A DNA stretch of 64,000 bases, taken from the NCBI RefSeq assembly GCF_000226215.1, contig NZ_AGFF01000027.1:1-64000 (forward strand), written 5' to 3'. The notes beneath the pieces are model-generated. The model saw nothing but the letters and a program-made list of their open reading frames with translations. It searched no databases and was not told where the DNA came from. Within the stretch, counting starts at the first letter, position 1. Each line of letters starts with the position of its first letter. Positions 32,699 to 41,800 of the stretch are shown piece by piece. Source of the stretch: Dietzia alimentaria 72 (lineage in GTDB: Bacteria > Actinomycetota > Actinomycetes > Mycobacteriales > Mycobacteriaceae). The translations under genes and the position numbers were made by a program.

Positions 32699-33403
32699 AT
32701 GACGGGCGAATCGATACCGACGCAGGCGCCGAGGACCAGGATGTCGGCTGCCAAGCGGCGCCAGCAACTGGTCGAGGTGGGCCGCCGGATTTTCGCCCAG
32801 TACGGCTACGACGCGGCCACCGTCGAGGAGATCGCTGCGGTCGCGGGTGTGTCGAAGCCGGTGGTCTACGAGCATTTCGGTGGTAAAGAGGGCTTGTACG
32901 CGGTGGTCTGTGATCGCGAGCTCGCCTATCTGGGCGCCGAGATCACCGAGTCGCTCGAGGGTGAGGGGTCTCGCCGGCGGATCGAGCGCGCGGCCATGGC
33001 GCTGCTGCGCTACGTCGAGGAGCGCACGGACGGGTTCCGCATCCTGGTCCGCGATTCCTCGCTGAGCAACGGCGGCTCCTATTCGACTCTGCTCAACGAC
33101 GCCACTGCCAGCGTGACATACATCCTCGAGGAGGAGTTCGTGGCGCGAGGTTTTGACCCGGTCACCACGAACGTCTACGCCCAGGCGTTGGTCGGCATGG
33201 TGTCCGGCACCGCGCAGTGGTGGCTCGACGTGCGCACCCCGCCCAAGGAGGAGGTGGCCGCGCACATCGTCAACCTCTGCTTCAACGGTCTCTCGCACCT
33301 CGATCCGCGGCCGGTGCTCGAGTCCGAGGTTCTGGACAAGTACGCAGCCCCCGGGGACGAGAGCTGCGCCCGCGACATGCGACCGGGCCCGGCTAGCCCC
33401 TGA
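32699..33403 (+). CDS. TetR-family transcriptional regulator
   Basis: This 234-residue regulator has the TetR DNA-binding domain at residues 20-68 (RRQQLVEVGRRIFAQYGYD, VEEIAAVAGVSKPVVYEHFGGKEGLYAVV). A long effector domain follows. It starts at ATG after AGGAGGG. Its place between tRNA-Gln and mfd corresponds to Rv1019 of M. tuberculosis, so it is backbone rather than acquired. The ligand is unknown; mfd regulation is possible but not shown. Confidence 0.92.
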   Translation: MTGESIPTQAPRTRMSAAKRRQQLVEVGRRIFAQYGYDAATVEEIAAVAGVSKPVVYEHFGGKEGLYAVVCDRELAYLGAEITESLEGEGSRRRIERAAMALLRYVEERTDGFRILVRDSSLSNGGSYSTLLNDATASVTYILEEEFVARGFDPVTTNVYAQALVGMVSGTAQWWLDVRTPPKEEVAAHIVNLCFNGLSHLDPRPVLESEVLDKYAAPGDESCARDMRPGPASP

Positions 33404-33461
33404 GGGTGCCGGGCCCGGGTATGCGGGTGCGGTGCCCGCTGACGGGCAGGCGCCTGATAGA

Positions 33462-34031
33462 TCAGGCTGCGGTGTGCCCAGTGTGGGCCGGCAGCTTGGT
33501 GGCGGAACTGCGCAGTCGGAACGCGACCGCGGCCATGATCACGCCGACGATCACGCCGAACCAGCCCGCGAACGGCAGAACGGACTCGACGGTGGACGGG
33601 CCCGCGATGACCAGAACCAGGCCGACCACTGCCACGACCACGCCGAGCGCGGTCATCATCCACGAGTTGGGTACGTCCTTGCGCAGCTCCCACGCGCCGT
33701 AGATCACGAGCACACCGGAGGCAATCAGCCACAGCGCGAACAGTATGACCAGCGCGGTAACGGTGATGTTCGGCCAGAACAGCACAATCAGGCCCAGCAC
33801 GACAAATGCAACACCGGCGCCCGCGAGGATGCCTTTACCGCCGCTACCGTCCCGGATTCCGGTTGCGGCGATGATATTCATCGCGCCGTCTCCGATCGCA
33901 AACGCGGCCACCAGGAATGCGGCCAGAAAAATTCCCGTGCTGGGTGCGATCAACGCGGTCAGGCCGAGCCCGAATGCCAGCACGCCGCGGATCAGCTGGA
34001 TCCACCAGTTGCGGGTCAGTGATTCGATCAT
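33462..34031 (-). CDS. HdeD/DUF308-family membrane protein
   Basis: This 189-residue protein has six short hydrophobic segments in three pairs, the HdeD architecture: WWIQLIRGVLAFGLGLTALI opens it, then VLGLIVLFWPNITVTALVIL and GASTV/IAGPSTV-type turns follow. E. coli HdeD is linked to acid resistance, but actinobacterial members have no known role. The ATG at 34031 with AGGTGG upstream is preferred over GTG 34040. It is divergent from a TetR gene with a palindromic operator between them. Confidence 0.85.
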   Translation of the reverse strand: MIESLTRNWWIQLIRGVLAFGLGLTALIAPSTGIFLAAFLVAAFAIGDGAMNIIAATGIRDGSGGKGILAGAGVAFVVLGLIVLFWPNITVTALVILFALWLIASGVLVIYGAWELRKDVPNSWMMTALGVVVAVVGLVLVIAGPSTVESVLPFAGWFGVIVGVIMAAVAFRLRSSATKLPAHTGHTAA

Positions 34032-34079
34032 TGCTTCCACCTCTTTCTTTCAGGTGGCGGGCTGTTGCCCGCCGTTCGT

Positions 34080-34101
34080 TACTGTAATGATCACTACAGT
34101 A
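34080..34101. promoter_or_regulatory. TetR-type operator: TACTGTA-N8-TACAGTA
   Basis: The 22-bp near-palindrome has exact 7-bp arms (34080-34086 and 34095-34101) centred on TGATCA. It lies in the 127-bp gap between the HdeD-like gene and the TetR gene. The TetR protein probably binds here to control both. Confidence 0.75.
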
Positions 34102-34158
34102 GTATGTTAAGGACGCCATTAGCAACGGTATGGGGTGTCAGACACACTTGGAGGGCGG

Positions 34159-34860
34159 ATGGCCCACGACGAGAAAATCGAGCCGACGACGACGAAGACG
34201 ACGACGACGAGGCGCACGCGCGCCAACGGCCGCGAATCGCGCCGGAGAATCATCGAGGCCGCCGCCGCGGTCGCGGGCGAACGCGGTTACGAGGGCACGT
34301 CGATCGCGCGGATCAGCAAGGCCAGTGGCCTGCCGGCCAGCTCGATCTACTGGCACTTCAAGGACAAGGACGCACTGCTGGCCGCGGTGGTGGCGGAGGG
34401 CGTCGAACTCTGGCTCGGCCAGGTCACGCAGACCGACGGGTCATCGCTACCGGAGAAAGTGATGTCCCTGAGCAGAGGGGTGGCGCGGGCGCTGACGGAG
34501 TCGCCCGACTTCCAGCGGCTGGGCGTGATGTTGGCGCTGGAGAAGCGACCGGACCAGACCGCAGGTCGGGAGATCTTTCTCCGGCTGCGGGGCGAGGCGG
34601 TCGAGGCGATCGCGCAGGAGCTGCACAAGGCCCGGCCGGGCCTGAGCTCGGAGCGGGCGCACGACCTGGCCACCTACGCTCTCGCGGGTGGAGACGGGAT
34701 CTTCCTGGCATCCCAGTTCGGCGAGGTGGACCTGGACCGAATGTTCGCGATCCACGCCACCGCGATGATCCACCTGATCGAGCAGGTCGAGGACGACGCT
34801 CGAGTGGACGCCGACTCCCCAGGGCGAACCCGGTCAACGGTGCCGGAAGACGTCGAGTAG
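34159..34860 (+). CDS. TetR-family transcriptional regulator, divergent from hdeD-like gene
   Basis: This 233-residue protein begins with a Thr/Lys-rich head, then the TetR helix-turn-helix (residues 30-75: RRRIIEAAAAVAGERGYEG, IARISKASGLPASSIYWHFKDKDALL). The ATG at 34159 has GGAGGG six bases upstream and is chosen over GTG 34135. The effector domain ligand is unknown. Its 3' end overlaps the convergent methyltransferase gene by 27 bp. Confidence 0.92.
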   Translation: MAHDEKIEPTTTKTTTTRRTRANGRESRRRIIEAAAAVAGERGYEGTSIARISKASGLPASSIYWHFKDKDALLAAVVAEGVELWLGQVTQTDGSSLPEKVMSLSRGVARALTESPDFQRLGVMLALEKRPDQTAGREIFLRLRGEAVEAIAQELHKARPGLSSERAHDLATYALAGGDGIFLASQFGEVDLDRMFAIHATAMIHLIEQVEDDARVDADSPGRTRSTVPEDVE

Positions 34861-35406
34861 AAAGTCCTCCTCGCGATACCTGGCCAGCGGCGTGAGATCG
34901 CGGCGTCGCGCGAGGGCGGCGTGGACGTCCTCGCCGTGGCAGGCGTGGTCCGTCGAGTGCCCCAGCCAGTGACACGCCGCGATCGTCCCGCCGGGACGAA
35001 CCAGCCCCAGCAGCGTTGTGATCAGCGAGTCGAGGCCGTCGACCGGCGTGTAGTAGAGAAACTCCGACAGTACGAGCAGGTCGCACGCCGGGCGGGGCCA
35101 CGGGTCGGTCGCATCGGCGGTGCGTACCCGCACGTGGTCGAGTCCGGCCCGGGCGACCCGGCGGCGGGCCTGCTCAGCTGCGGTGTCCACCACGTCCACG
35201 GCGTGGACCTCGTCGCACCGATCGGCGAGCATCTCCGTGAGCACACCCACCGAACAGGCGGGCTCGAAGCACACCCGGTACCGCGGCTCCGGCAGCGAGG
35301 CCACCAGCAGTCCGTAGCGGCGTAGTTCGTACCACGAGCCGGCGAAGTCCCACGGGTCTTCGGACTCCGCGTACATCTGCTGAAAATAGTGGTCCGGCGT
35401 ACTCAT
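34834..35406 (-). CDS. NodS-like SAM-dependent methyltransferase
   Basis: This 190-residue protein matches the NodS family: start HYFQQMYAESEDPWDFAGSWYE is characteristic. The SAM loop is VCFEPACSVGVLTEML, and CDLLVLSEFLYYTP fits as motif IV. Rhizobial NodS N-methylates the deacetylated glucosamine end of Nod factor. Here it is last in an operon whose preceding gene is a PIG-L deacetylase (ATGA overlap), so N-methylation of a freshly deacetylated amino sugar is the inferred reaction. Confidence 0.85.
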   Translation of the reverse strand: MSTPDHYFQQMYAESEDPWDFAGSWYELRRYGLLVASLPEPRYRVCFEPACSVGVLTEMLADRCDEVHAVDVVDTAAEQARRRVARAGLDHVRVRTADATDPWPRPACDLLVLSEFLYYTPVDGLDSLITTLLGLVRPGGTIAACHWLGHSTDHACHGEDVHAALARRRDLTPLARYREEDFLLDVFRHR

Positions 35407-36188
35407 ACCAGCACCGTCTCCTCCCGCGTGAGCAGGCGGTCGAGAATCCAGTCGGGCAGGATCGCCTCGTCCCCCGGATGCTCGGAGAGGGGGTGGATCT
35501 GGGTGACGAACTCTTCGACGGCTGCTCGTTTGGCGGCGAGCTCGGAATCGTCGAGCCGCACCCTGCGCCGCCGGTCCCAGGGCACCCGGGAGTCACCGGG
35601 GCTGGCCCAGTGCCACGTCCACACAGGATATTCCGCCAGCTGGGCGCCGGTTTGAGCGCAGGCGCGGGCAGCCGCGCGGCCTGAGGCCTCGTGGTCCGGG
35701 TGGCCGTCGCCCCGCCAGGTGCTCAGGACGAGACAGTCCGTGCCGGGTGCGCCTGCCCTCGCCCCGCGACCGTCAGCGACGAGCCCCGCGATGGTCTCGG
35801 CGAGCCGCTCCTCGTGGGCGTGCACCCCACCGTCAGGTAAGCCGACTCGCACCGGCTCGGGCAGACCCAGGATCGCGCAGGCGCGTCTGCTCTCCTCGAC
35901 CCGCAGGGCGCCGAGCCGGTCGCCGGTCAGGGTGGGGGAGTCGGGGTGTGAGGCGTCGCCGTCCGTGACACCCACGATCACCACCTCGACCCCCGCTGCG
36001 ACGGCCCGTGCCGCTGTGATGCCGACCCCGAGGATCTCGTCGTCGGGGTGGGGCGCCACCACCAGCAGCCGCCGGATCCCGGTCGGCAGGCGCAATTCCG
36101 GATCCGGAGCGCGCTCGGCGAACCACGCGTCCCAGAGGTCGTGGGGGGTCCCGCGGTCGTCGGGCCCGATTCCGTCCCAGGCGGTCAC
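35403..36188 (-). CDS. PIG-L family N-deacetylase
   Basis: This 261-residue zinc-dependent deacetylase has the metal motif VVAPHPDDEILGVG near residue 46. GVTDGDASHPDSPTL follows, and the third ligand is in STWRGDGHPDHEASGRAA. The family removes acetyl from GlcNAc groups (MshB, LmbE, GPI synthesis). The GTG start at 36188 overlaps the preceding stop (GTGA), and its own stop overlaps the methyltransferase start (ATGA). It is too divergent from context to be called MshB; the partners point to a glycolipid or glycan substrate. Confidence 0.88.
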   Translation of the reverse strand: MTAWDGIGPDDRGTPHDLWDAWFAERAPDPELRLPTGIRRLLVVAPHPDDEILGVGITAARAVAAGVEVVIVGVTDGDASHPDSPTLTGDRLGALRVEESRRACAILGLPEPVRVGLPDGGVHAHEERLAETIAGLVADGRGARAGAPGTDCLVLSTWRGDGHPDHEASGRAAARACAQTGAQLAEYPVWTWHWASPGDSRVPWDRRRRVRLDDSELAAKRAAVEEFVTQIHPLSEHPGDEAILPDWILDRLLTREETVLV

Positions 36189-37162
36189 CGAGCCCACCCG
36201 CCGTGGGTAGCCGCGGTGGCGCCGAGTGCGGCGAGGTCACGCTCGGCATGGAATTGGCGAACGTACACCTGGGCGTCCAGGACGTTCTGGGCATGGCGAG
36301 GATCCATCGCGAGCGGGCCCGGGCCGAGAGCCCTGCCGACGCGCCGGATGGTCTCGTCCACCGCGGCCTCGACCACTGCCCGAGCGCGCACGGCCCGGTG
36401 ACGCGCGGCCGTGAGGTCCGTATCCGGGCCCTCGCGGTCGATCTCGGTGGCGGCTGCATCCAGCGCCCACTCCGCCCCGCCGAGGGCCACGTCGACCGCG
36501 CCGAGGTGCGCGAGGGTGTGAGGGTCGGTGCCGGGCCGGTCTGCTCGCGCCACCAGTGGCCGCGCCACGGCGATACCGGCTCCGAGCCAACATGCGGCCA
36601 CTCCGATCCCGCCGTGCCAGAACCCGGGCCGGTCTAGGTACGAGCGGTGATCGCCGAGGGCGCGGGCCGGGACGTCCGTGAAGGCCACTTCGGATGTACG
36701 GCTGCCCGCCATTCCCGGGTTGGCCCAGTTCCCGGGTCGGGGTGCGACACCGGGCTCGCGCAGGTCCACGGTGAAGAGGCGCGGTGCGTCGTCGTCGAGT
36801 GCGGTGACCAGGGCGTGCGTGCACACGTCGCTGCCGGAGCACCAGGCTTTGACCCCGCTGAGCAGCCAGGCGCCGCCCGACCGCCGAGCGGTGAGCACGG
36901 GTGTCGGTGGTTCGGCGGCCCACACTCCCCACAGTTCGTCGCGGCCGACACGGGAGCCCTCGATCTCGGCGAGGATCGCGTCCGCGTCGACGTGGGCTTC
37001 CACCAGACGGCCTGCGGAGACGTCGCGCGTGCAGAATTCGGTGAGCGCGGACCAGCGGGCGCGGGTGTCGCCCCCCGCGGGTAGCGGCAGTTCGGCCTGA
37101 CCGGTTCGCACCCAGTCGAGCGCGATTTCAGAGCTGTGCCGGGCCGGATCACTGGTGTTCAC
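36185..37162 (-). CDS. Acyl-CoA dehydrogenase-like flavoprotein (short form)
   Basis: This 325-residue protein resembles acyl-CoA dehydrogenases in its middle domain (WLLSGVKAWCSGSDVCTHALV, PGMAGSRTSEVAFTDVPA) and C-terminal helices (AALGATAATHGG-like end). It is shorter than the usual 380-400, and the N-terminal helical domain is much reduced. A clear catalytic Glu is not visible. It could act on a carrier-bound or sugar-linked acyl chain. It overlaps both neighbours by 4 bp (GTGA), so it is firmly part of the operon. Confidence 0.78.
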   Translation of the reverse strand: MNTSDPARHSSEIALDWVRTGQAELPLPAGGDTRARWSALTEFCTRDVSAGRLVEAHVDADAILAEIEGSRVGRDELWGVWAAEPPTPVLTARRSGGAWLLSGVKAWCSGSDVCTHALVTALDDDAPRLFTVDLREPGVAPRPGNWANPGMAGSRTSEVAFTDVPARALGDHRSYLDRPGFWHGGIGVAACWLGAGIAVARPLVARADRPGTDPHTLAHLGAVDVALGGAEWALDAAATEIDREGPDTDLTAARHRAVRARAVVEAAVDETIRRVGRALGPGPLAMDPRHAQNVLDAQVYVRQFHAERDLAALGATAATHGGWAR

Positions 37163-37881
37163 TGGCTGACCGCCTGGTCGGTGGTCGCCAGGTGCCCCGC
37201 GAAGCCCCCGAACACGCGGGCGGAGCGGCGCGCGGAGGTGAGAACGGGCGACGCGGTGGACCAGGCCACGGACATTCCGGCGCGCTCGGCGCGATCGACC
37301 AGCTGGACGTCCTCGTGGACCGCCAGTGGCGTGAAGCCGCCGAGACGCCGGTAGGCCCGGGCGCTGACGCCGATGTTCGCGCCGTGGACGTGGCGGTGGC
37401 CGGGGCCCCGGCGGTAGCCCTCGAGGTAGCGCTGGCGGGTGGCCGGGCTCCAGTCGGACCAGTCATCCACCTCGACCAGCCCTGCCACCACGTCGGCGCC
37501 GGCCTCGGCCAGTGCCAACTGGTCCGCCAGCCAGGTCCGGGGGACGCGGGAGTCGGCGTCGGTGGTGGCGTACCAGTGCCCGTTCGCGCCGTCCGTGCCG
37601 TCCGTGCCGTCTGTGTTGTCCGTCCCGCCTGCTCGCGCATGGCCGGGTGAATCGAACCCGGCGGCACGCGCCATTCCCACGTTGCGCGCGTCGAGGCGCA
37701 GGACCCGGGCGCGACCATGGGCGATGCGCGCCGAAGCATCAGTGCACGAATCCAGCACCACGGTCACCGTCACCGGCACCGGCGTGACGGCCTTGCACTC
37801 ATCGAGCGCGTCCAGGCAGTGACCGAGGAGGTCCTGTTCGTCGTGGGCCGGGATCACCACGTGGACTCGGGTATAGGACAC
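37159..37881 (-). CDS. Family 2 glycosyltransferase
   Basis: This 240-residue GT-A enzyme lacks transmembrane segments. It begins VHVVIPAHDEQDLLGHCLDAL, has the metal motif TTDADSRVP and the acceptor loop HGANIGVSARAYRRLGGF with VHEDVQLVDRA, the mycobacterial GT2 ED motif. A small run of TDG/TDN words (near residues 87-100) is inserted just before the DAD motif and looks like a recent tandem expansion. The GTG start at 37881 is 13 bp after the VKOR stop. The donor and acceptor are unknown. Confidence 0.88.
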   Translation of the reverse strand: MSYTRVHVVIPAHDEQDLLGHCLDALDECKAVTPVPVTVTVVLDSCTDASARIAHGRARVLRLDARNVGMARAAGFDSPGHARAGGTDNTDGTDGTDGANGHWYATTDADSRVPRTWLADQLALAEAGADVVAGLVEVDDWSDWSPATRQRYLEGYRRGPGHRHVHGANIGVSARAYRRLGGFTPLAVHEDVQLVDRAERAGMSVAWSTASPVLTSARRSARVFGGFAGHLATTDQAVSQ

Positions 37882-37894
37882 AATCGCTGGCGTA

Positions 37895-38632
37895 TCAGAG
37901 GTTGCCGAAGAAGTCTGCCCAGTAAAAGTCCCAGAACGCCCACAGGATGATGCCGGCCACCGCGAGGTACCAGACCACCACCGGGACGAGGTGCCACCGC
38001 TGCAGGGAACGCACCCAGCCGGCGCTGGTGAACTTTCCCAGCACATGCAGGCCGGTGTACCAGAACATGGGGATGACCATGGCCCAGACGACCATGCACC
38101 AGGGGCACAGCACCTGGATCGCGAAGATCGACTGGAATGCCAGCCAGTGCACGAACCCGGCGGCGAACGTCAGCCCCAGCAGCGCGCCCAGCCAGTACCA
38201 GCGCGGGAAACGCGTCCCCGAGGCGGCGGCGACACCGATCGCGATCAGGACGCCGAACCCGATCAGCCCGATGAACGGGTTGGGGAACCCGAACGCCGCG
38301 CCCTGCTCCGAGTTGATGACGCTCTTGCAGCTCATGAGGAGTGAGAAGTTGCAGGCCGGCACGTAATCCGGGTTCTCCAGCAACCGGATCTTGTCCAGGC
38401 TGAGCTCGAACGAGGCGATCAGCGCGAGTGCGGAACCGAGGGCCAGCAGCACGCCGATCCACCGGTCGGTGAACAGTCTCGAGCCCACTCCTGCGCGGAT
38501 GCGCTCGTCCGGCTCGGTATCGGCGGGGGCGATCGTCACGGGGGCGGCGGCCCCCCCGCTGGAATCTCCGGCAGACTGCCCGGTGGGTTCACTGGCGGTA
38601 TTGCCGTGCTCGGCGTCTGTGGTCTCGCTCAT
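37895..38632 (-). CDS. Vitamin K epoxide reductase (VKOR) family protein
   Basis: This 245-residue membrane protein has five hydrophobic helices. The VKOR pairs are CNFSLLMSCKSVINSEQGAAF (loop cysteines) and QVLCPWCMVVWAM (CXXC active site). In actinobacteria VKOR reoxidises DsbA with quinone to form disulfides outside the cell. The ATG at 38632 sits six bases after TAGATT on this strand, fitting a leaderless transcript. It heads the operon with the glycan-type genes, but its own role may be independent. Confidence 0.93.
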   Translation of the reverse strand: MSETTDAEHGNTASEPTGQSAGDSSGGAAAPVTIAPADTEPDERIRAGVGSRLFTDRWIGVLLALGSALALIASFELSLDKIRLLENPDYVPACNFSLLMSCKSVINSEQGAAFGFPNPFIGLIGFGVLIAIGVAAASGTRFPRWYWLGALLGLTFAAGFVHWLAFQSIFAIQVLCPWCMVVWAMVIPMFWYTGLHVLGKFTSAGWVRSLQRWHLVPVVVWYLAVAGIILWAFWDFYWADFFGNL

Positions 38633-38638
38633 ACGCAC

Positions 38639-38668
38639 AATCTACCGTCGCCGCGGCGCATCTAGACT
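38639..38668. promoter_or_regulatory. Back-to-back -10 boxes for VKOR operon and mfd
   Basis: TAGATT on the minus strand (38644-38639) lies six bases before the VKOR ATG. TAGACT on the plus strand (38663-38668) is a good -10 for mfd, giving a leader of about 130 nt. The two promoters are almost adjacent and may compete. Confidence 0.5.
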
Positions 38669-38803
38669 GGGCCCCTCACAACCCGGGCATCGTGAACCCA
38701 GGGTCATCCCGCGCGGCCTTCGTGTCGCACCGGCGCCGATGTACCCGCCCGCGACCTGCCCGACATTTCACCGCACCGTTTCTCACCCGGAGGCAGAACA
38801 CGC

Positions 38804-41800
38804 GTGACCACCACCGCCACCGCACCCAGCACCGCTCCCGCCACCCTGTCGGGTCTGGCCACCGCGGTGATCGCCAACCCGGCGTTGGCCGACCTGCGCG
38901 AGGGTCTGGACCGGGACACGGCGGTGGTGCGCGCGCCCGAGGCGATGCGGCCGTTCCTGGTCGCCGCGCTCGCCCGGAGCACCCCACTGTTGGTGGTGAC
39001 GGCCACCGAGCGCGAGTGTGAGGAACTGGCCGACGAGCTGGCGGGGTTGTACGACGACGAGGTGGCGCAGTTCCCCAGCTGGGAGACGTTGCCGCATGAG
39101 CGGCTCTCGCCCGCCTCGGACACGATCGGTCGCCGGCTGCAGGTGCTGAACTCGGTGTTGTCCGGTCGTCCGCCGGGGATCGTGGTGGCGGCGGCGCGGT
39201 CGGTGGTGCAGCCGATCTCGCCCGGCGCTGCCCGCCGTGAGCCCGTGCGGGTGGCCACGGGTGCCGAAATAGACCCGGCCGACCTCATGGTGCGGCTCGC
39301 CGAGTTCGCCTACCTCCGCGAGGACATGGTGGCCCGGCGCGGCGACGTGGCGGTGCGCGGCGGGATCGTGGACGTCTTCCCGACCACCGCCGACCATCCA
39401 CTGCGCATCGAGTTCGACGGCGACACCATCGCCGAGATCCGTGAGTTCTCGGTGGCCGACCAGCGCTCGCTACCTGACGGCGAGGTCGAGTCGGCAGCAC
39501 TGTTCCCGTGCCGCGAACTGCTTCTCGACGACACCGTGCGCGCCAGGGCGGGGGAGTTGGCCGCCGAGCACCGGGCCAACCCGACCCTGGCGGAGCTACT
39601 GGACTCGCTGGCCGAGGGCATCCCCCGCGACGGCATGGAGGCACTGACCTCCGTGCTCGTTCCGGAGGAGATGACCACCCTGCCGATGCTCATGCCGGCC
39701 GACACCCGCGTGGTGGTGTGCGATCCGGACAAGGTCCGCCGCCGCGCCGCAGACCTGGCCTCCGCCGGCCGGGAGTTCCTCGAGGCCTCGTGGACCGCCG
39801 CGACCATGGGCGGCGACGCCCCCGTGGACAGCGAGACCCTGGACCTGTCCGGCTCGGGCTACCGCACCTTCTCCGCGGTCCGCGAGGAGGCGACCGCTGC
39901 CGGTCGTGCCTGGTGGCAGCTGGTCCCGCCCGGATTCCTCACCGACCCCGAGGACGGTTTGCTGGTGACCGTGCCCGCGGGCGATCCGCCGGCCCCGCGC
40001 GGCAAGGACACCGAGATGGAGGCGATGTTCGTCCGGCTGCGCGCCCTGGTATCCGGTGGTGGGCGTGCGGCGGTGGTGGTCCCGGGCCACGGCACCGTCA
40101 CCCGTATTCTCGAGCGCCTATCCGAGGCGGAGGTCCCCGCCACGGCCGCCAAGACGGGCGCCGAGCCCGCGGCCGGACTGGTCTCGGTCTACGAGGCGGT
40201 CCTGCACGGCGGGTTCACGCTCACCGAGGGCGCCGACTCGGTGGCCGGCAACCTCGTCGTCGTCTCCGAAACCGACCTCACCGGTAACCGCCTCGGCTCC
40301 ACCACCCGGCCCAAGGCGCGCCACTCCAAGCGGCGCAACCAGGTGGACCCGCTGGCGCTCAAGGCCGGCGACTGGGTGGTGCACGACCAGCACGGCATCG
40401 GCCGGTTTGTGGAGATGGTCGAGCGGCAGGTGCGCGGCGGCGACGGCTCCTCGCGGCGCGAATACCTGGTGATCGAGTACGCGCCGGGCAAGCGCGGCGC
40501 CGCCGGCGACCGGCTCTACGTGCCCATGGAATCGCTCGGGCAGCTCAGCCGCTACGTCGGCGGCGAGGCCCCCACGCTGTCCAAGATGGGCGGCGCCGAC
40601 TGGCAGAACACCAAGCGCAAGGCCCGCAAGGCGGTCCGCGAGATCGCCACCGAGCTGGTGCAGCTGTACGCCAAGCGGCAGTCCGCGCCCGGCCGCGCCT
40701 TCGGCGCCGACACCCCGTGGCAGCTCGAGATGGAGGACGCGTTCCCGTTCACCGAGACCGTCGACCAGCTCACCGCGATCGAGGACGTCAAGGCGGACAT
40801 GGAGAAGACCGCCCCCATGGACCGCGTGGTGGTGGGCGACGTGGGATACGGCAAGACCGAGGTCGCCGTGCGCGCGGCGTTCAAGGCCGTGCAGGACGGC
40901 ACCCAGGTGGCGGTGCTCGTGCCCACCACCCTGCTGGCGCAGCAGCACCTGGCCACGTTCGCCGATCGCATGACCGGCTTCCCGGTGACCATCAGGGGGC
41001 TGAGTCGCTTCACCTCCGACGCCGAGGCCAAGAAGGTCCTCGCCGGTCTGGCCGACGGCACCGTGGATGTGGTGATCGGCACGCACCGACTGCTCGCCAC
41101 GGGTGTGCGCTGGAAGAACCTCGGCCTGGTGATCGTGGACGAGGAGCAGCGCTTCGGCGTGGAGCACAAGGAGCACATCACCTCCCTGCGCACCCACGTG
41201 GACGTGCTCACCATGTCCGCGACGCCTATCCCGCGAACGCTCGAGATGTCGTTGGCGGGCATCCGCGAGATGAGCCAGATCCTCACCCCGCCCGAGGAAC
41301 GATTGCCCGTACTGACCTATGTGGGCGCGCATTCGGACAAGCACGTCGCCGCCGCCATCCGGCGCGAACTGCTGCGGGAGGGCCAGATCTTCTACGTGCA
41401 TAACCGCGTGCGCACCATCGACGCCGCCGCCGCCAAGATCCGGGACCTGGTGCCCGAGGCGCGCGTGGTCGTGGCACACGGGCAGATGGGGGAGGAGCAG
41501 CTCGAGCAGACCGTCGGCGGCTTCTGGAACCGCGACTACGACGTGTTGGTCTGTACGACCATCGTCGAGACCGGCCTGGACATCTCCAACGCCAACACTC
41601 TGATCGTGGACCGCTCTGACCAGCTAGGGCTGTCGCAGATGCACCAGCTGCGCGGCCGCGTGGGCCGGTCCCGCGAACGTGGGTACGCGTACTTCCTCTA
41701 TGACCCGGAAAAGCCGCTCACCGAGACCGCGTACGACCGGTTGGCCACCATCGCGCAGAACAACGACCTCGGTGCCGGCATGGCAGTGGCGATGAAGGAC

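Follow-up and report, generated by a model that had tools for sequence, protein, structure and literature searches.

What might four tightly packed enzyme genes of Dietzia alimentaria 72, whose combination recalls the rhizobial Nod-factor pathway, make together? The genes lie in the first 64,000 nucleotides of contig NZ_AGFF01000027.1 (assembly GCF_000226215.1), the stretch analysed here and called the window. They encode a small glycosyltransferase of family 2 (GT2), a protein with the acyl-coenzyme A (CoA) dehydrogenase (ACAD) fold, a PIG-L/LmbE-family deacetylase and a NodS-like class I S-adenosylmethionine (SAM) methyltransferase. The original prediction, made from this sequence, read them as a Nod-factor-style operon, perhaps for an N-methylated envelope glycolipid. 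We find that the four-gene cassette is real and conserved, and undescribed as far as our searches show. Our preferred reading, to which we assign a probability of roughly 0.4, is that the genes form one dedicated cytosolic small-molecule pathway leading to an amino-sugar glycoside, N-methylated and of use under stress.

All four genes are on the minus strand. The GT2 gene (37159-37881, 240 amino acids) is the first of the cassette here and has a GTG start, with an alternative longer in-frame start at 38046 that falls inside the preceding VKOR gene. It is followed by the genes for the ACAD-fold protein (36185-37162, 325 amino acids), the deacetylase (35403-36188, 261 amino acids; GTG start, with an earlier GTG at 36197 in the open reading frame (ORF) list) and the methyltransferase (34834-35406, 190 amino acids), which is the last. 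Their Pfam matches are PF00535 GT2 (E 1.6e-9), PF02770 ACAD middle domain (E 1.3e-9), PF02585 PIG-L (E 2.4e-26) and PF05401 NodS (E 3.5e-12); together with VKOR, each of the five window proteins scores above its family cut-off. The junctions within the cassette read GTGA, GTGA and ATGA, giving 4-bp overlaps, and a gap of 13 bases lies between the VKOR stop and the GT2 start. The predicted succession of VKOR and four genes overlapping by 4 bp was thus borne out at three junctions by ORF coordinates, Pfam and the junction letters. The interval given for it, 34834..38632, describes the genes correctly and misplaces the end, which falls within VKOR and so outside the conserved unit.

The four genes form one unit, and their order is not by chance. 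In a set of 150 genomes of the order, searches at E 1e-20 located the ACAD-like gene (protein query) in 60 and the methyltransferase gene (profile query) in 59: 54 genomes have both, 6 only the former, 5 only the latter and 85 neither. The two genes lie no more than 3 kb apart in 52 of the 54 genomes that have both, and Fisher's test of their co-occurrence gives p = 7e-28, a value that overstates independence because the genomes are related. We then compared 86 loci, all retrieved by way of the ACAD-like protein: the 80 best of 549 ACAD-like relatives in named genome contigs, all from actinomycetes by title and many from Streptomyces, and six plasmid loci. All four genes were found in 63 of the 86 (tblastn, 1e-4). 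Profiles detected four long genes in 59 loci, arranged as GT2-ACAD-PIGL-MT (MT, methyltransferase) in 30, ACAD-PIGL-MT-GT2 in 27, PIGL-MT-GT2-ACAD in 1 and PIGL-GT2-ACAD-MT in 1; 58 of these 59 full cassettes can be obtained by rotating a single circular order. Pairwise distances among the four proteins are correlated (r 0.85-0.92), some of which shared phylogeny alone would yield. A survey of the four-gene order had been proposed alongside the original prediction, and on all these counts the genes do co-occur. The circular order (L036, L038, L056 and others) looks as if the cassette had moved as a circular piece, or had undergone tandem duplication and loss.

The cassette is patchily distributed and reaches well beyond the actinomycetes. 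Its ACAD-like gene is present in 30 of 296 genomes of the phylum (E 1e-30) and in 7 of 23 genomes of the genus, the window's own included. Full cassettes are annotated also in alpha-, beta- and gammaproteobacteria; among 12 plasmid-collection records, gene-by-gene annotation covers those of Comamonas, Acinetobacter, Pandoraea, Legionella lytica and Sphingomonas. The Sphingomonas plasmid cassette (L163, 4700-8140) has the gene order of the window and a longer GT2 of 404 amino acids. In Cupriavidus three of the four genes are adjacent, and the nearest PIG-L gene, about 3 kb upstream, is a distant paralogue (22% identical). An unannotated, chromosome-sized Acinetobacter baumannii record (L162, 11358-16138) has four ORFs that by eye resemble a full cassette; behind them come a small protein and, also by eye, an apparent BLUF light-sensor gene. 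Plasmid hits in Methylobacterium and Burkholderia multivorans (27% and 26% identity) were weak, had no surrounding cassette and were dropped, and tblastn found no relative in viral_contigs that would indicate phage carriage. No description of the four-gene cassette was found in the literature, where most subscription papers lay outside our search. The earlier remark that no such pathway was known in this group is matched by that literature result; the cassette itself is not confined to the group.

The deacetylase and methyltransferase suggest chemistry on an amino sugar. The window PIG-L protein scores 93 bits against a cut-off of 28.2, has no second Pfam match at E 0.01 and contains the motifs PHPDDE and HPDH, the second of the HxDH form; residues H47, D49, D50, H163, D165 and H166 are invariant in the seven family members compared. 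The nearest PDB relative of the family profile is diacetylchitobiose deacetylase, followed by TT1542, the teicoplanin deacetylases, BshB and MshB. The protein falls below all equivalog cut-offs (BshB1, 53 versus 182.5 bits; BshB2, 48 versus 195; MshB, 33 versus 224). The window methyltransferase reaches 47 bits with Pfam NodS (cut-off 24), and its best-scoring named NCBIfam model is also NodS, at 60.4 bits; as the equivalog cut-off is 300, it is by this measure not a NodS equivalog. The NodS model matches seven of seven methyltransferase family members scanned, and in the Sphingomonas protein a generic methyltransferase model scores slightly above it. In the PDB, the window methyltransferase matches 4isc with 107 bits versus 38 bits for NodS (3ofj).

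The glycosyltransferase would have to stand in for NodC in a Nod-like scheme. NodC carries a QxxRW motif and membrane helices. The motif was found in 0 of 47 GT2 members, and the window GT2 is without a membrane segment by hydropathy (maximum mean 1.25 over 19 residues). D108-A109-D110 and E190-D191 are invariant in all 47. Weak model matches among these members were to EpsD (exopolysaccharide; 46), MftF (mycofactocin; 31), GpgS (a solute enzyme; 22), two polyprenyl-type transferases (18 each), PpgS (17) and PgaC/IcaA (2). The window GT2 also has a low-complexity insert rich in Thr, Asp and Gly (37579-37629) that is absent from the five other rows of its alignment (A4).

The ACAD-fold protein is probably a flavin-dependent oxidase or monooxygenase, not an acyl-CoA dehydrogenase. 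In the window protein only the middle domain is recognized (PF02770, 38.5 bits versus a cut-off of 33.3). Each of 63 actinomycete members matches this domain at E 0.01, and 6 and 2 of them also match C-terminal ACAD domains weakly; the proteins from Legionella and Sphingomonas have no Pfam match. In acyl-CoA dehydrogenases, a C-terminal motif of the IYEGT/IYGGT type holds the catalytic glutamate. In the corresponding alignment column we saw, by eye and loosely, an IYEGT-type motif in 24 of 28 ACAD-fold paralogues from the same genome and in 0 of 12 cassette members, which carry RQxHAERD or a close form in its place; the exceptions are L186 (probably misaligned), L194, L202 and L203. A strict pattern for the dehydrogenase motif occurs in 13 of 28 paralogues versus 0 of 63 cassette members, and RQxHAExD in 0 of 28 versus 50 of 63. 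When profiles of 7 and 63 members were searched against the PDB, flavin monooxygenases of the DszC/TdsC type came top (43.7 and 40.6 bits), and nitrososynthases scored about 23-32 bits. The NCBIfam models matched, at weak E-values, were SfnB in 58 of the 63 members, DszC in 29, CoA desulfinase in 13 and FadE models in 9 and 2; the window protein reaches 20 bits with SfnB (cut-off 431), and no monooxygenase family model reaches its cut-off. Nitrososynthases and other ACAD-fold monooxygenases oxidize heteroatoms, and nitrososynthases act on amino sugars. An attempt to map the catalytic histidines of DszC onto the family by alignment did not hold and was dropped.

From these assignments we infer the substrates, step order, product, location and role of the pathway. 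The GT2 would transfer an N-acetyl amino sugar, most likely N-acetylglucosamine (GlcNAc) from a uridine diphosphate (UDP)-sugar, to a small acceptor. The PIG-L protein would then remove the acetyl group, and the NodS-like enzyme would methylate the freed amine with SAM. Finally, the ACAD-fold flavoenzyme may oxidize the resulting compound, with the nitrogen or its immediate neighbour as the likeliest site and no acyl-CoA dehydrogenation involved. The pathway is predicted to yield a soluble amino-sugar glycoside, de-N-acetylated, N-methylated and perhaps N-oxidized, and the stress in question could be drying, osmotic or oxidative.

The genomic setting of the cassette in several lineages is consistent with such a role. 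Comamonas carries otsA-[ACAD-PIGL-MT-GT2]-otsB as one run of genes. In Acinetobacter, otsA, otsB, catalase and DUF2171 genes are near the cassette, with an MFS gene after it, and upstream of the Legionella lytica cassette are otsB and a gene for a GH65 enzyme. We searched 92 loci for chosen neighbour genes, the catalase and topoisomerase IB queries being the Cupriavidus and Acinetobacter plasmid-locus genes themselves. A large catalase accompanies the cassette in Cupriavidus, Acinetobacter and Antrihabitans and in 11 Mycobacterium loci, and topoisomerase IB accompanies it in Cupriavidus and in 13 loci of Mycobacterium. Of the 92 loci, 4 have a ferritin-like gene, 3 OtsA and 4 OtsB. Because stress-gene neighbours recur in unrelated lineages, a role in stress is suggested. 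Clustering of flanking ORFs was swamped by antisense frames in the high-G+C DNA and provided leads only.

Several observations weigh against this reading of the cassette. At the level of the unit, at least one cassette gene was not found in 23 of the 86 loci (Mycobacterium, 17; Gordonia, 3; Cupriavidus, Lapillicoccus and Streptomyces, 1 each), two of which (L077 and L094) stop at a contig edge. For the enzymes, all matches of cassette proteins to named enzymes are far below equivalog cut-offs. A hydrophobic stretch is present in at least one GT2 member besides the window protein, and the GT2 acceptor is not settled by these matches, because the exopolysaccharide and polyprenyl-phosphate models match about as often as GpgS. 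Entries named acyl-CoA dehydrogenase score little below DszC in the ACAD-like profile searches (38.2 and 39.6 bits), and a PDB search with the window protein alone is headed by entries of acyl-CoA dehydrogenases (Tcur3481 at 27.7 bits, followed by 6u1v and glutaryl-CoA dehydrogenases), with no DszC listed. A loose form of the C-terminal motif, matching 24 of 28 paralogues, also matches 18 of 63 cassette members within the last 140 residues, and no flavin reductase is present in the cassette.

The regulatory and neighbourhood evidence has its own counterweights. OtsA and OtsB matched none of the 80 actinomycete genome loci, the Mycobacterium loci represent one lineage, and in the window neither a catalase nor a trehalose gene was seen close to the cassette. 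A SigF-like motif, GTTT-N14-17-GGGTA, from the promoter tables of PMC4694148, lies upstream in 4 of the 80 loci (0.2 expected from shuffles), 3 of them in Nocardia, and a search of window positions 33000-40000 with a looser pattern gave no match. We make no general claim that a general-stress sigma factor controls the cassette. Among the incomplete loci, eight from Mycobacterium (L042, L043, L046, L055, L058, L059, L074 and L089) have a long ACAD-like gene, no methyltransferase found and a GT2 fragment or none; in such loci, which were fetched through the ACAD-like protein, that gene may serve a separate function or be a mere remnant.

The explanation closest to the original prediction is a Nod-factor-like, N-methylated and acyl-modified envelope glycolipid whose acyl chain is tailored by the ACAD-like protein. 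Two steps of the Nod analogy, deacetylation and methylation, survive in the PIG-L and NodS-like pair, which suggests an amino sugar that loses its acetyl group and is then methylated, a non-homologous PIG-L fold taking the NodB role. The glycosyltransferase and acyl-chain steps do not: the missing QxxRW motif and membrane segment argue against a NodC role for the GT2, and the replaced C-terminal motif against tailoring by a true acyl-CoA dehydrogenase. The weak GT2 matches to polyprenyl-phosphate and exopolysaccharide enzymes, the lead of acyl-CoA dehydrogenase entries in the single-protein PDB search and the longer Sphingomonas GT2 would all fit a glycolipid. No acyltransferase, acyl carrier or flippase is annotated within the cassette, however, and VKOR is unlinked outside the genus; we regard a glycolipid as unlikely. 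A protectant like mycothiol or bacillithiol, in which the glycosyltransferase makes a GlcNAc-acceptor glycoside, PIG-L frees the amine and a methyl cap replaces cysteine, would agree with the PIG-L matches to BshB and MshB and with the catalase neighbours of some lineages. Against it stand BshB1 and MshB scores far under their cut-offs, the lack of a cysteine ligase in the cassette and the GT2 family of the transferase, MshA and BshA being GT4 enzymes. The window's own genome has seven PIG-L matches, and the thiol deacetylases may therefore be elsewhere; this explanation seems improbable to us.

An antibiotic- or siderophore-like specialized metabolite built on an amino sugar would account for a small, patchy cassette with a TetR gene beside it, for the many Streptomyces loci and for nitrososynthases among the distant relatives of the flavoenzyme. 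Yet no recurring transporter or assembly-line gene adjoins the cassette in the six plasmid loci, the MFS gene of Acinetobacter aside, and the same four genes extend from actinomycetes to proteobacteria, which makes such a metabolite hardly likely. We retain a cytosolic N-methylated amino-sugar glycoside as the preferred product. It can be extended, as a long shot, to an undescribed class of protectants: soluble N-methyl amino-sugar glycosides with the amine N-oxidized to a hydroxylamine or nitrone, acting as redox buffers or drying protectants, shared by actinomycetes and proteobacteria and moving between stress islands and plasmids.

The VKOR-family membrane protein (37895-38638, minus strand; PF07884, E 4.6e-40) is a neighbour outside the conserved unit. 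It has a match in 20 of 23 genomes of the genus at E 1e-20, with identity as low as 34% in one of them, and is thus commoner than the cassette. It stands immediately before GT2 in five fetched genus loci with the cassette. It is also in place in seven fetched loci without the cassette, where the window gene beside it is DUF308 (four loci), TetR (one), FasR-like (one) or none (one). It had no match in any of 86 loci outside the genus, and on these counts we rejected VKOR as a pathway member. Because VKOR is commoner and stays where the cassette is lacking, the cassette is best described as a patchy insert, or a block lost repeatedly, behind a core VKOR gene.

At the other end of the cassette, a TetR-family gene (34135-34860, plus strand; Pfam TetR_N) is convergent with the methyltransferase gene, overlaps its end and encodes a candidate local regulator. 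It adjoins the cassette in the window and in four of five fetched genus loci, and is also found in one of the seven cassette-less loci. In that locus (L157, genome G450) the TetR gene adjoins VKOR and no cassette is present, as though the gene had stayed after a loss or had come before the rest. A second, FasR-like TetR regulator (32699-33403) scores 110 bits with the mycobacterial FasR model (cut-off 330) and is present in 11 of 12 genus loci.

From soil actinomycetes to the plasmids of Acinetobacter, the same compact pathway of four enzymes keeps recurring, which suggests a small molecule common to these bacteria; we found no name for it in the literature. Should the product prove protective, trehalose, mycothiol and bacillithiol would be joined by a class of amino-sugar protectants, and the placement of the cassette beside catalase or trehalose genes in some lineages would have an explanation. 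The family also suggests that some 'acyl-CoA dehydrogenase' annotations may conceal amino-sugar oxidases.

Among known systems, the cassette, though not itself a Nod pathway, resembles the rhizobial Nod-factor pathway (NodC, NodB, NodS and NodA) in having a GT2, an amino-sugar deacetylase and a methyltransferase nearest NodS. It differs in a GT2 without QxxRW, a PIG-L fold in place of the NodB-type polysaccharide deacetylase, a methyltransferase at one-fifth of the NodS cut-off, an extra ACAD-fold enzyme and the absence of NodA from the cassette; PF02474 (NodA) has no match in the window's own genome, the control genomes being equally silent. Mycothiol and bacillithiol biosynthesis likewise combine a glycosyltransferase with a PIG-L deacetylase to make a small amino-sugar glycoside. 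In contrast to them, the cassette uses the GT2 family, has a methyltransferase and a flavoenzyme with no cysteine ligase, and its deacetylase scores below the named cut-offs. The ACAD-like protein has detectable profile similarity to nitrososynthases (ORF36, KijD3 and DnmZ) and to DszC-type monooxygenases, although at only about 23-44 bits, with 325 residues against chains of 395-454 and no NCBIfam cut-off reached. The closest solved relative of the cassette methyltransferase is PDB 4isc, an unnamed 'Methyltransferase' that scores 203 bits with the family profile and is probably itself a cassette member.

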